From Paracoccus albicereus (GTDB lineage Bacteria > Pseudomonadota > Alphaproteobacteria > Rhodobacterales > Rhodobacteraceae), in assembly GCF_024359525.1 (NCBI RefSeq), contig NZ_JAKZEU010000001.1, positions 372,001 through 436,000 on the forward strand: DNA of 64,000 nt. Direction: 5' to 3'. The notes beneath the pieces were generated by a model. That model worked only from the letters and a program-made list of their open reading frames with translations, had not been told where the DNA came from and did no database searches. The position numbers and the translations under genes are program-made. Below, one piece after another: positions 47,201 to 50,919 of the stretch (position 1 is its first letter; the number at the start of each line of letters is the position of its first letter).

Positions 47201-47574
47201 TCTCGATCAAGGATGCCGACAAGTCCGATGCGCTGGCCGCGGCCAGCCGCGACCTGATCGCGATGGGATTCGACATCGTCGCGACCGGCGGCACCGCCGA
47301 CTGGCTCGCCGCCCACGGGGTTCAGGCGCAACGCGTGAACAAGGTCTACGAGGGCCGCCCGAACATCGTCGACCGCCTGAAGAACGGCGACATCGCGATG
47401 GTCCTGAACACGACAGAGGGCGCCCAGGCCATCGCCGACAGCCGAGAGATCCGTGCCGTCGCCCTCTATGACAAGATCCCGTATTACACGACGGCGGCGG
47501 GAAGCATCGCGGCCGTCGCGGCGATCAAGTCACGGGAAGAGGGTGAAGTTGGGGTGCGAAGTTTGCAGGCTTGA
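44236..47574 (+). CDS. carB: Carbamoyl-phosphate synthase large subunit
   Basis: Makes carbamoyl phosphate for arginine and pyrimidine synthesis with the CarA glutaminase. It is 1,112 residues, slightly longer than the usual 1,070-1,080. Two homologous ATP-grasp halves are visible: [19 protein letters not shown] and [13 protein letters not shown] in the first, [19 protein letters not shown] and [12 protein letters not shown] in the second, and a C-terminal MGS-like allosteric domain ([19 protein letters not shown]). The end ([14 protein letters not shown]) looks natural. A decayed low-GC gene overlaps its last 45 bases on the other strand. Confidence 0.97.
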
Positions 47575-49321
47575 ACTGGTGTCGAAGGCCACTCGGGCGA
47601 AAAAGTTAAATCCGACCCGGTCTAGCATCATCGTAAGTGAGGACTCCTTTGACCGAATGTCAAAGGGCTCTGCTAGTATATTTGCAATTTTACCGCTTGG
47701 ATCAGCACTATCTTGAGCGGCGACAACGATGTCAGTCAGCGAATCTAGAAGGTAGCTGCCTCTAACTACTGGTATTCCGTTTACAGAAAGCCCATGACCT
47801 GAGAATTTATTAACCACAATTAACCCAATAAATTGAAGTTTCTTGACGTCGCCATTTCATTTAATAGCCTGACTTAAGACCGCGCGATTATGCCTGACCC
47901 AGCTTAGCTTGCTTTCTAACTGGCCGCCTGCATCTCTCAGACTTTCAAGGATGCGGTGCCGTCTTCTTGGCTCATTAGCGTTAAGGTAGGTTTTAATCTC
48001 GCAGACTAATACGATAGGACCGACCCTGAGCACTAGATCGATATCGCCACTTTCACCCGCATCAAAAGCGTGCGCTAGCGGGAAAAAGTCTTCCTCGTTC
48101 ATATCTTTTCTCTTTTCTAAAAGATTTAGTCGCATATTTTTTTCAAAAAGAGATTTCGCCGGATTACTTTTTCCGGAAAACAATTTTGCGCGGGAACACC
48201 AGTCTGAAAATCTAGTCTGCATGTTCGTTATGTATAGGGCCTGATGACAGATCGCCGTTCGCTCATGTTTGAGAGGTATAATGGGCGAAGACCATAGCCC
48301 CGATCGATCTGGAAAGGGCCGGAAGCTGATAAAATCTAGGATAGCTCTCGCGTATCCCACTGAACATGACAGCCGCCAATGCATCTAAAAGTGTCTTAGT
48401 TTCAAATATGCGGTTCTGACTTCCTGTCGACTGACGCTTTTTGACGGTTAGCAAAACATATCGAGCAATGACATGCCATGCGCTGAGGACTTCCCTGAGA
48501 GTAATTTCCTCTTGTTGGTAACGAAATGGAATATCGAATAGTTCAGATCGGGAATCGCCTGACAAATAACCAAGATCTAGAACTTCGCCATTATTCATTG
48601 GCGCGTGTTCAATAATAAATCGCTCACCCTCATCAGAAACTCGTATAATCTTCTTGCTAAGATATGAAAATTCTAGGATTTTATTCGGCTGGTTTCCAAG
48701 GCTCTCATCCCTAACTTCCTCGAGAATTCTCGCGGCCTCCCAGTGCTTCGCAAGATGAACATCCTGCGGTTCGATCCAGAAGGATTGATCCTTTAAGTAA
48801 ACGTGCGAATTCTCCCAGATTGCCTGCTCCCAGAGGCTTTGAATCATTTGAACCCTCTGATTTGCTTGGTACAGATCGTCAAGATTAAGACTATTAGGGT
48901 TTAATGACCCATCTGACAAAAGTGCATATGACACAAGTTGACTTGCACTGTCGACGGCAGAGGTGATTGTAGCTTGATATAGCTTCTGCGCGACCCCCGG
49001 TGTATTTGATAACAGAGGATTAAATTTGTGCCTAGCCTCTTTCACCACGTTGTCGAGTTCAGAAAGGATTAGTTCGACCAAACCATCTGTAGCGTATTTA
49101 CTTAATTTGGTAAGCTTTGCTCGCTCAGTCTTATACTTACTGCTTAAACAGTCAGCAATATTAAAAAGATCCATATCGACAACGGTTGCTGCATCAGCTT
49201 CGTCAATTATGCGCTGCCACTGACCAATATCAAAATTAGAACTGGTCAAGGGCGTGGATTGACTTGAATGAATGCTCCTCCTTAGCAAGTCGAGTGTATC
49301 GATCGGAACAAGTGTTGGCAT
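47530..49321 (-). pseudogene. Decayed PD-(D/E)XK nuclease-like gene (frameshift plus in-frame stop)
   Basis: Three open stretches on the minus strand (49321-48263, 48384-47857, 47817-47530) read as one gene of about 596 residues if damage is undone. Removing one base from the C4 run at 48298-48301 joins the first frame (LPALSRSIG) to the second (LWSSPIIPLKHERTAIC). The second and third stretches are in the same frame, separated by a TGA at 47857-47859, and sense resumes at once (NGDVKKLQFIGLIVVNKFSG). The nuclease-like motif is GDIDLVL...VLVCEIKTYL (Asp, then Glu-x-Lys) near 48010-48060. The DNA is AT-richer than its neighbours and overlaps the carB end. The function is unknown; a defence or mobile-element role is a guess. 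Confidence 0.72.
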
Positions 49322-49476
49322 CCTGAGAGTAATCCCGCTCTACAAGCTTAATTAAGCCATGCCACGACCCATATGCGGCCGCCCGTCCGGCTTCCCCACG
49401 GCAAAGCTCGCTGTAGTCTGCGACAGTCTTAGGATGCTATTACTTTAAGCGCTTGTGCCGCGAGTCAATCATAGTC

Positions 49477-50010
49477 TCACTTCACCCCCCACTCCGCCTT
49501 CATCCGTGCGTAGCGCTGCGCCACGGACTCGCGCCCCTTCTTCACGCCCTCCGGCGTCTCCATCGGCACGCCCGGATTGTCGCGGCCGAAATCGCCCCAG
49601 GCGATGTCCTCGCCGAACTCCTCCAGATCGCGGGACTGGTCCGCCCAGTCCGGGCGCTTGCCGTCGAAGTCGATGTCGTCGTCGCTGGTGCGGCGCAGGT
49701 AGTCCATCGTCTCGGCCCCGTCGATCAGCCCGGCCAGTCGCGCGTGCATCCAGACCGACAGCACCCGGTTCATCCGCGGCTGCCAGTCCGAGCCCATCGA
49801 GCGGAAGAATTTCAGCACGTCGTCGTCCAGCCGCAGCGTGACGCGGGTCTTGCCCTCCGCGCCCTTCTCCTTCGCGATCGCGTGCCAGTCCGCCGGGATG
49901 CGCAAGTCGCGGAACACCGCCTGGTGCAGGTCCCATTCCAGCTTCCGCATCGCGTCGGCCATGTAGTGGTAATTGCGCCGCCGCGCCTCGGCCGCCTTGG
50001 TGATCGCCAT
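49477..50010 (-). CDS. BrnA-antitoxin-family protein, orphan
   Basis: A 177-residue protein with the BrnA ribbon-helix-helix-like signature near its middle: KTRVTLRLDDDVLKFFRSMG and then RMNRVLSVWMHARLAG. In classic BrnTA modules this domain binds DNA and neutralises the BrnT RNase toxin. No BrnT gene is next to it on either side, and similar stand-alone genes occur in Rhodobacteraceae, so it may be a DNA-binding regulator. I chose ATG 50010 (MAITKAAEARRRNYHYMADAMRKLEWDLHQ); earlier in-frame starts at 50037 and 50052 exist. Four phased 11-bp repeats lie upstream in its promoter region. It is followed by the decayed low-GC gene. Confidence 0.72.
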   Translation of the reverse strand: MAITKAAEARRRNYHYMADAMRKLEWDLHQAVFRDLRIPADWHAIAKEKGAEGKTRVTLRLDDDVLKFFRSMGSDWQPRMNRVLSVWMHARLAGLIDGAETMDYLRRTSDDDIDFDGKRPDWADQSRDLEEFGEDIAWGDFGRDNPGVPMETPEGVKKGRESVAQRYARMKAEWGVK

Positions 50011-50086
50011 CGCAGGAACCCTTTTGTCGATGGCGCCCATTCTGCACATCAAGGGTTAACGATCCCCGAACCGCGCGTGCGCAGCC

Positions 50087-50130
50087 TGTGTACAGGTTGT
50101 GTACGGCCTGTGTACGCCCGGTGTACGGAT
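50087..50130. repeat. Four tandem 11-bp GTGTAC repeats, candidate operator
   Basis: TGTGTACAGGT (50087), TGTGTACGGCC (50098), TGTGTACGCCC (50109) and GGTGTACGGAT (50120) are contiguous 11-base units, so the GTAC core recurs once per helical turn on one DNA face. They lie about 75 bases upstream of the BrnA-like ATG. A further GTAC occurs at 50200-50203, 77 bases (seven units) after the last core. Confidence 0.72.
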
Positions 50131-50226
50131 GTCACAGCCTTCGGCCCAGCACATGCTGGGCTTTCGACGCCGCCTGGTGTTGCGCTGTTGCGCCCTTCCG
50201 TACGCTGGTGTTGCCGTTAAGACGGG

Positions 50227-50919
50227 TTAACCCAGATAGGCCCGCAGCCCCGGCGGCGGATCGTCCAGAAGCGGCCCCGTCGCGGTCGGCGCATGCGCGA
50301 CCCCGCCTTCGACCACCACCGTCTCGGGTGCGAAAAACCGTGCGTCTTCAGGATCATGCGTGACCATCAGCACCGTCGCCCCGCTCTCGCGCGCGATCTC
50401 GGACAGCAGGTTCAGCATCTCGATCTTCAGCGCCGGACCCAGCGCTCCGAACGGCTCGTCCAGCAGCAGCACCGGCCGCGCGCGCAACAGCACCCGCGCC
50501 AACGCCACGCGGCTCTGCTGCCCGCCCGACAGCGCCGAGGGCCGCCGATCCTCCATCCCCGAAAGCCCAACCCTTTCAATTGCTTGCGAGACACGATCCG
50601 TCTGCTCGGCACTCAGCCTCAGATCTGGCCGCACCCCCAATCCGACATTCTGCGCCACACTCAGATGCGGAAACAGGTTCTGATCCTGAAACAGGATCGA
50701 CACCGGCCGCTTCCCCGGCGCCACCCCGCCCAGATCGCGCCCGTCCCAGGCGACAACCCCCTGATCCGGCATCAGAAATCCCGCAACCAGAGACAGCAGC
50801 GTGGACTTCCCCGACCCCGACGGCCCGATCACCGCGACCCGCGCGCCCGGCCGGACCGCGAAATCCGCGCTCAGCCGGAATTCCCCCAGCGAAACAGAGA
50901 CATCGCGAAACTCAAGCAC
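50227..50919 (-). CDS. thiQ: Thiamine ABC transporter ATP-binding protein
   Basis: Powers uptake of thiamine and thiamine pyrophosphate with ThiP and ThiB. It is 230 residues, with Walker A GPSGSGKST (32-40), Q-loop LFQDQNLFPHLSV, signature LSGGQ (130-134) and Walker B LLLDEPFGAL followed by VLMVTHDPEDA (H-loop). ATG 50919 overlaps the thiP stop by 8 bases. It is the last gene of the thiBPQ operon under the TPP riboswitch. Confidence 0.93.
   Translation of the reverse strand: MLEFRDVSVSLGEFRLSADFAVRPGARVAVIGPSGSGKSTLLSLVAGFLMPDQGVVAWDGRDLGGVAPGKRPVSILFQDQNLFPHLSVAQNVGLGVRPDLRLSAEQTDRVSQAIERVGLSGMEDRRPSALSGGQQSRVALARVLLRARPVLLLDEPFGALGPALKIEMLNLLSEIARESGATVLMVTHDPEDARFFAPETVVVEGGVAHAPTATGPLLDDPPPGLRAYLG

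Follow-up and report, generated by a model that had tools for sequence, protein, structure and literature searches.

Ribbon-helix-helix (RHH) proteins of the Arc/MetJ type bind as side-by-side dimers on phased half-sites, with alternate residues of a beta-strand contacting the bases, and MatP, the protein of the Escherichia coli Ter macrodomain, shares the RHH fold. Intergenic repeats of the ERIC/REP type are present as tens of copies of about 100-200 bp. The BrnAT complex is reported to bind its own promoter (PMC5086665), and matS, the target of MatP, is given as a 13-bp sequence that occurs 23 times in 800 kb (PMC3330122). CdbA of Myxococcus xanthus is described as an RHH protein, likely a tetramer on a direct-repeat motif and no classical transcriptional regulator, with more than 500 moderately sequence-specific sites, many within genes; it shows that an RHH protein is able to organize the nucleoid (PMC7156744).

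The array described here lies in a 64,000-nucleotide stretch of the Paracoccus albicereus genome (the window), beside a gene for a BrnA-like protein. This protein resembles BrnA of the Brucella abortus BrnTA type II system in matching PF14384 above the cut-off, but whereas the Brucella proteins are reported to act as a 2:2 complex on their own promoter, here a toxin-less protein, with no BrnT found beside it, is accompanied by about 30 chromosomal arrays. A DNA-binding protein whose chromosomal sites are dispersed and limited in number recalls MatP and matS as reported; matS, however, is one 13-bp target found within Ter only, whereas the present sites comprise four phased units and lie round the whole chromosome of the related genome G015. 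Unlike CdbA as it is described, this system has some 30 strict and largely intergenic arrays. Arc/MetJ-type operators are known to serve few genes, in contrast to the genome-wide set found here, which co-evolves over a family, and ERIC/REP-type repeats differ from a strictly conserved core array that is tied to a protein, common to several genera and partly at orthologous places. We predict with good confidence that the four GTGTAC units are the binding array of the adjacent toxin-less BrnA-family RHH protein and that 30 others are further sites, with protein and array co-evolving. Among titles and abstract openings of the open-licence literature, we recognized no account of GTGTAC or 11-bp arrays dispersed over Rhodobacteraceae genomes, or of genome-wide binding by an orphan BrnA.

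Four phased units upstream of an orphan brnA-like gene

The arrays, their copy number and position, their co-occurrence and covariation with the protein, and the genome-wide motif predictions are computed directly. GTGTAC begins at positions 50088, 50099, 50110 and 50121 of the window, a spacing of exactly 11 bp, and the four GTGTAC-N5 units on the plus strand (50088-50098, 50099-50109, 50110-50120 and 50121-50131, the last ending at 50131) are putative binding sites for the BrnA-like RHH protein. Sequence and phasing are thus as the first-pass annotation had them, and its view that the promoter region of a BrnA-like (RHH) gene carries a phased array resembling an operator is upheld. The distance from the array to the start codon is 78 bp. 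The gene (49477..50010, minus strand) encodes an orphan protein of 177 aa with the strand RVTLRLD and a match to Pfam BrnA_antitoxin (E 9.3e-15); its score against PF14384 is 55.2 bits at a curated cut-off of 26.1, which all seven further homologues scanned also exceed. The predicted structure of this protein is poor (AlphaFold, pLDDT 65), with helices at residues 63-70 and 76-96 in a block of pLDDT 83-92 following a non-helical segment (48-62) and no strand assigned, and a Foldseek search with this poor model returned nothing significant. Assignment of the RHH fold therefore rests on Pfam and the sequence pattern.

The upstream neighbor is a thiQ-like ABC ATPase gene (50227..50919, minus strand), named in the first-pass annotation and matching only ABC/AAA families, ABC_tran among them; it is not considered part of the array/BrnA-like system. 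The ends of the two genes had been read as facing divergently, which is wrong: both lie on the minus strand, so the 3' end of thiQ faces the 5' end of the brnA-like gene.

The array belongs to a repeated element of about 185 bp (50048..50234, plus strand), whose window copy fits our sequence model R1 with an E-value of 6e-29. A TTAAC-N6-CGAAC box, recognized from the sequence and the alignment of copies and likewise phased at 11 bp, adjoins the array (50056..50071, plus strand). The other modules are a perfect palindrome, GCCCAGCACATGCTGGGC (50144..50161, no strand), with a core, CAGCAAATGCTGG, that is the consensus over copies; two TGTTGCGC units, a conserved module of the element (50178..50193, plus strand); and the right end, GTTGCCGTTAAGACGGGTTAAC (50210..50231, plus strand), with the thiQ stop codon inside its GTTAAC. 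A fifth GTAC, noticed earlier at a distance of seven units, is present here at 50200, but only 6 of the 31 copies in the genome have GTAC at that spot, and there is therefore no fifth conserved unit.

Thirty-one copies of the element in the genome

Searching the 3.66-Mb genome for GTGTAC-N5-GTGTAC gave 85 matches at 31 places, against zero for the pattern read backwards; the window array is one of these 31 copies, each within an element of about 185 bp. We extracted 8 kb around each place and aligned the sequences on the first unit. The common element spans -40 to +146 relative to that unit, beyond which conservation is near background, bar a weaker module on the left side. Its modules run in the order TTAAC box, four units, a GGGTTGTGAC or GGATGTCAC stretch (the latter in 6 of 31 copies), palindrome, double TGTTGCGC and a right arm ending in TTAAC, and the four GTGTAC units are the best-conserved part (mean of 1.7-1.9 bits per column over the 31 copies). 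A model built from the copies, using sequence only, recovers the same 31, 28 of them at 101-120 bits and three variants at 82-86 bits; its other 14 matches at E <= 0.01, none above 25 bits, are echoes of these places on the opposite strand. The variants (L023, L029 and L033) have different flanks, with GTTGCG/CGCAAC motifs as in the Paracoccus genome G019. At six loci (L014, L018, L021, L022, L024 and L031), GGATGTCACAGC replaces GGGTTGTGACnC after the array, as though GTGAC had been flipped. Many copies in the series L009-L039 are preceded, about 40-90 bp to the left of the array, by a second common module, AAATATCCCCGCCGGAGGC...CCGGCGCAGCCGG, which resembles an intrinsic terminator.

All 31 copies sit between predicted genes or at gene edges, with the predicted gene start extending into the element at L012 and L023. 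They are confined to five contigs totaling 3.11 Mb; the 15 smaller contigs (about 0.55 Mb) hold none, which has a probability of 0.006 under a uniform model. We considered insertion linked to tRNA genes, but a tRNA gene lies within 350 bp of the array at just three of the 31 loci (L009, L018 and L033), and this is not a rule. At L013 (4247-5410) a copy adjoins the 3' end of a gene for a CcrM-like DNA methylase (Pfam N6_N4_Mtase and RAMA).

Judged by eye, nine of the 31 copies occupy places that are orthologous in one or the other of two relatives: five in G019 (L016/L106, L026/L113, L023/L122, L019/L129 and L017/L119) and four in G015 (L013/L072, which is inverted, L027/L073, L038/L094 and L029/L095). 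For L026, L027, L019 and L017 the immediate sharing is limited to a single flank. Thus one part of the set has been inherited and retained, and another has moved or turned over.

Distribution and co-occurrence with the BrnA-like protein

Arrays of four GTGYAC units were found in 24 of 61 Paracoccus genomes (allowing up to two mismatches) and in 22 of 394 genomes of the family sampled at about one per genus (up to one mismatch). The named genomes with arrays, among the matches listed, are mostly Rhodobacteraceae, including Paracoccus, Pontivivens, Planktomarina, Yoonia, Tateyamaria, Palleronia, Nioella, Leisingera and others; the few unrelated taxa listed with them probably reflect chance or minisatellites. 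The BrnA-like protein (E < 1e-40) is encoded in 23 of the 61 Paracoccus genomes, namely in 16 of 24 with any array versus 7 of 37 without (Fisher p 3e-4, ignoring relatedness). With a cut-off of at least eight matches, which was picked after seeing the counts, the split is 16/18 versus 7/43 (p 1.3e-7, again ignoring relatedness). Across the family, a profile match (E <= 1e-10) was obtained in 17 of 22 genomes with GTGYAC arrays versus 106 of 372 others (p 6e-6, a value that likewise takes no account of relatedness). At these respective thresholds no BrnA-like protein was detected in the array-bearing Paracoccus genomes G006, G029 (84 % complete) and six low-count genomes, or in 5 of the 22 array-bearing family genomes; several of the compared genomes are drafts. 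Protein and arrays are both absent in many species, where the system is therefore dispensable.

Phased arrays at brnA-like promoters of other genomes

The first-pass annotation made its operator proposal depend on conservation of the repeats near orthologues, a check that the proposal survived here. Upstream of the brnA-like gene, 47 of 62 genomes, mostly those of the strongest homologues, have a repeat phased at 11 bp (score of at least 20), and its motif covaries with the presumed contact residues (see below); the other 15 promoters stay under 20, and G466, counted among the 47, shows a C-rich stretch with no clear array. This count leaves out L149 and L197. By set, the score was reached by 20 of 24 rows in the first (22 Paracoccus genomes plus two other loci) and by 28 of the 40 rows from the family. 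For Paracoccus we read 22 of the 23 genomes with a BrnA-like protein, G455 being left out; the scored family set was the 40 genomes of the motif-blind test that follows, with G165 and G127 in place of G081 and G411. The repeats start 40-110 bp from the gene, with G454 (+185) as the sole exception.

The motif-blind test took the promoters of the 40 strongest among 123 profile matches outside the Paracoccus genomes G000 and G083. Lag 11 was the best lag in 30 of these 40 promoters of other genera and scored at least 20 in 26, versus at most 2 of 40 for any other lag from 6 to 20. Comparison across genomes thus lends good support to the autoregulation by the BrnA-like protein proposed earlier, although the operator in the window is just one site among many. 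In G015, 35 GTGYAC-type sites are listed, yet its own brnA-like gene has no more than a degenerate NATACG array.

Motifs read at the promoter predict the genome-wide set

Seven Paracoccus genomes have a BrnA-like protein without GTGYAC arrays, and the readable ones show other motifs at the gene: TGCATGAAC in G083, G013 and G454 (in G457 there is one unit only before the contig end) and GTGCAT in G020 and G033. Pattern matches overlap, at two or three per array, so the counts that follow exceed the number of sites. Genome-wide, TGCATGAAC gave 43 matches in G083, 24 in G454, 5 in G457 and 3 in G013, versus none in 11 of 12 other genomes and one match in G033. GTGCAT gave 16 matches in G020 and 12 in G033; of 14 other genomes, 12 had none, and G015 and G019 had one each. 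The seventh Paracoccus genome, G466, has neither TGCATGAAC nor GTGCAT arrays anywhere. In seven other genera the motif at the gene is CCAKACG (weak in G363 and G099), and CCAKACG arrays were found in all seven predicted genomes (G235, 66; G205, 48; G109, 18; G345, 18; G251, 7; G363, 7; G099, 6) and in none of 15 others. Altogether, further copies of the promoter's own motif were present in 13 of 14 genomes searched, G013 having a single site besides its own promoter.

Covariation of presumed contact residues and motif

The strand of the BrnA-like proteins follows the pattern X1-V-X2-L-X3-L, in which X1, X2 and X3 are presumably the base-contacting positions, as in Arc/MetJ. We compared 41 promoters with a clear and classifiable array. 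X3 was arginine with GTGYAC in 22/22 cases and a residue other than arginine with TGCAT in 9/9, an agreement of 31/31 (p 5e-8, ignoring relatedness). X1 was lysine with CCAKAC or AAGAC in 9/9 and arginine with a motif of the TG class in 31/32; X1 thus agrees with the CC or TG class in 40/41 (p 3e-8, ignoring relatedness), the exception being G137 (RNR). X2 was asparagine with AAGA in 3/3. L149 and G445, both among the 41, are the same genome, so GTGYAC is represented by 21 independent genomes.

These 41 rows come from 64. Sixteen were dropped for an S11 below 20, and seven with an S11 of at least 20 (G015, G438, G466, G107, G013, G005 and G360) because regular expressions left them unclassed. 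Among the low-scoring rows to which a class could be given, G268, G151, G363 and G099 agree with the code; G131, with RTR contacts, a GTCATA-like unclassed repeat and an S11 of 18 (below the cut for the 41), disagrees. Parsimony on a tree computed with the strand columns removed, many nodes of which have low support, gave four changes each for X3 class and its motif, and the same number each for X1 and the TG/CC class. The effective sample is lowered by relatedness, which does not by itself explain the pattern of residues and motifs. Since the repeat sequence shifts along with the presumed contact residues across dozens of species, the neighboring BrnA-like protein is the likely binder of the arrays.

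GTGYAC is palindromic or nearly so, which fits one RHH dimer on each 11-bp unit; four dimers would line up on one face of the helix, presumably touching their neighbors. We infer physical binding, one dimer per unit, repression and a part in chromosome architecture. Bound at its own gene, the BrnA-like protein would most likely repress it, and the other 30 arrays would be further chromosomal sites of the same protein. A change in a presumed base-contacting residue of the beta-strand goes together with changes in the promoter motif and in the dispersed arrays.

Placement and possible role of the dispersed sites

Because the window array is one of 31 dispersed copies, autoregulation of one gene cannot be the full story. 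We tentatively favor a role for the dispersed sites in chromosome architecture or segregation, by analogy with other sequence-specific RHH nucleoid proteins; the reasons are that the arrays are depleted between divergent genes, have no evident shared pathway among their neighbors and are absent from small contigs. The main alternative, which we regard as less likely, is a regulon in which the BrnA-like protein acts as a transcription factor on roughly 30 arrays serving as operators of adjacent genes. Such a regulon would account for arrays that are largely intergenic, for one ideally placed at the brnA-like promoter, and for the recurrence of arrays upstream of the same gene, which from its sequence we take to be lpdA, in different genera (L138, L150 and L155).

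The placement data argue against operators. Merging identical array stretches reduced 213 loci from our own, related and named genomes to 192, of which 180 had both neighbors; 17 loci had been left out, chosen by eye as unrelated taxa or plain minisatellites, with the look of the sequence as the sole guide from L210 on. Of the 180 arrays, 54 lie between convergent, 28 between divergent and 98 between co-directional genes (convergent versus divergent, p 0.005; 20 versus 14 in the named-family subset alone). Between co-directional genes they are no closer to the next start than to the preceding stop (53 versus 45, p 0.48); over all, there was no significant preference for a nearest 3' as opposed to 5' gene end (99 versus 80, p 0.18). 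For 43 arrays the overlap with a crudely predicted gene exceeds 15 bp, probably because of over-extended predicted starts. A Pfam scan of 40 of the 54 confident gene calls beside the sites of our own genome revealed mixed functions (catalase, AcrB, 2-oxoacid dehydrogenase E2, a DNA methylase with RAMA, Mur ligase, MurB, trigger factor, NDK and CobT among them) and no common pathway. Furthermore, one recurrent place, found in Paracoccus and Planktomarina (L048, L062, L097 and L148), is at the 3' end of a gene.

With respect to chromosome architecture, the sites resemble matS in being dispersed and untied to promoters, and differ from it in that G015, G020 and G026 show no confinement to one macrodomain. 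In G015 all 35 listed of 36 matches are on its 3.27-Mb contig; taking this contig as the whole circle and parS as the origin, 22 of the 35 fall in the origin half (KS p 0.19). Pooling G015 with G020 (8/9) and G026 (7/10) puts 37 of 54 in that half (p 0.009, looked for afterwards), a weak bias and not confinement, which conserved gene order could also give. Replication polarity of the KOPS or Chi type was rejected: only 15 of the 35 G015 sites have their plus orientation on the leading strand. The lack of both confinement and polarity in G015 counts against an architectural role.

It is improbable that the arrays are carried by chance in a MITE- or ERIC-like non-autonomous mobile element and kept by copying, not function. 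A unit of about 185 bp with conserved modules, inverted TTAAC-containing ends and near-constant length in all 31 copies is what such an element would look like. However, of 1490 candidates from a first look the sequence model scored 150 and found none of them decayed, a sample from which very weak remnants could be missed; copies are at orthologous places in other species, with other places differing between species; G015 arrays, by eye, mostly do without the flanking modules; the motif tracks the local BrnA-like protein; and plasmid and phage records gave no match.

The Pfam BrnA_antitoxin match and the position of the array in the brnA-like promoter could also point to the simple autoregulatory operator of a true BrnTA toxin-antitoxin module. 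We consider this very improbable: Pfam found no BrnT in the ORFs that were scanned near the gene in the window, the two ORFs scanned out of those listed downstream at 15 loci in other genomes matched PIN_3 and Phd and not BrnT, and the genome holds 30 further arrays. Least probable of all is an RNA-level element (a 3'-UTR structure, riboswitch or sRNA), as many copies adjoin 3' ends and terminator-like hairpins but the predicted consensus pairs are without covariation support (RNAalifold term +0.11; a double change in 1 of 21 pairs), no Rfam family matches at the array, and at the orthologous place L013/L072 the element has the opposite orientation with respect to the genes.

Returning to the architectural reading, its fullest form is more tentative still: a domesticated, toxin-less antitoxin may serve as a chromosome organizer across Rhodobacteraceae, with four RHH dimers per array and tens of arrays in the richest genomes, protein and sites having been re-coded jointly several times while the genome-wide set was kept. 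If the sites do organize the chromosome, an antitoxin fold would have been recruited for an organizing role in a group that is not known to have MatP. Contact residues and motif have switched jointly more than once, which suggests that RHH proteins have a natural recognition code. In this large and ecologically important bacterial family, a whole set of sites, with tens of copies in the richest genomes, is assignable to its protein from sequence alone. That some 30 sites were rewired along with a single protein would also be a striking example of regulatory co-evolution.

Surroundings of the brnA-like gene

Directly downstream of the brnA-like gene the window has a low-GC island (47500-49500; 44-48 % versus 65-70 % around it). 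Its ORFs of 352, 175 and 95 aa have no Pfam match, and the scan of the window neighbors found none for the 352-aa ORF and seven smaller ORFs. In the array-bearing Paracoccus genome G460, an in-frame TAG lies inside the brnA-like frame (C16:305379-305888). At L317 (G071) and L326 (G345) the brnA-like gene is followed by another gene of toxin-antitoxin type, for a PIN_3 protein and a Phd/YefM antitoxin. By eye (L240-L259), most brnA-like promoters have a TTAAC-N6-TTAAC-like pair just on the gene side of the array, likewise phased at 11 bp, which we take to be CtrA-box-like.
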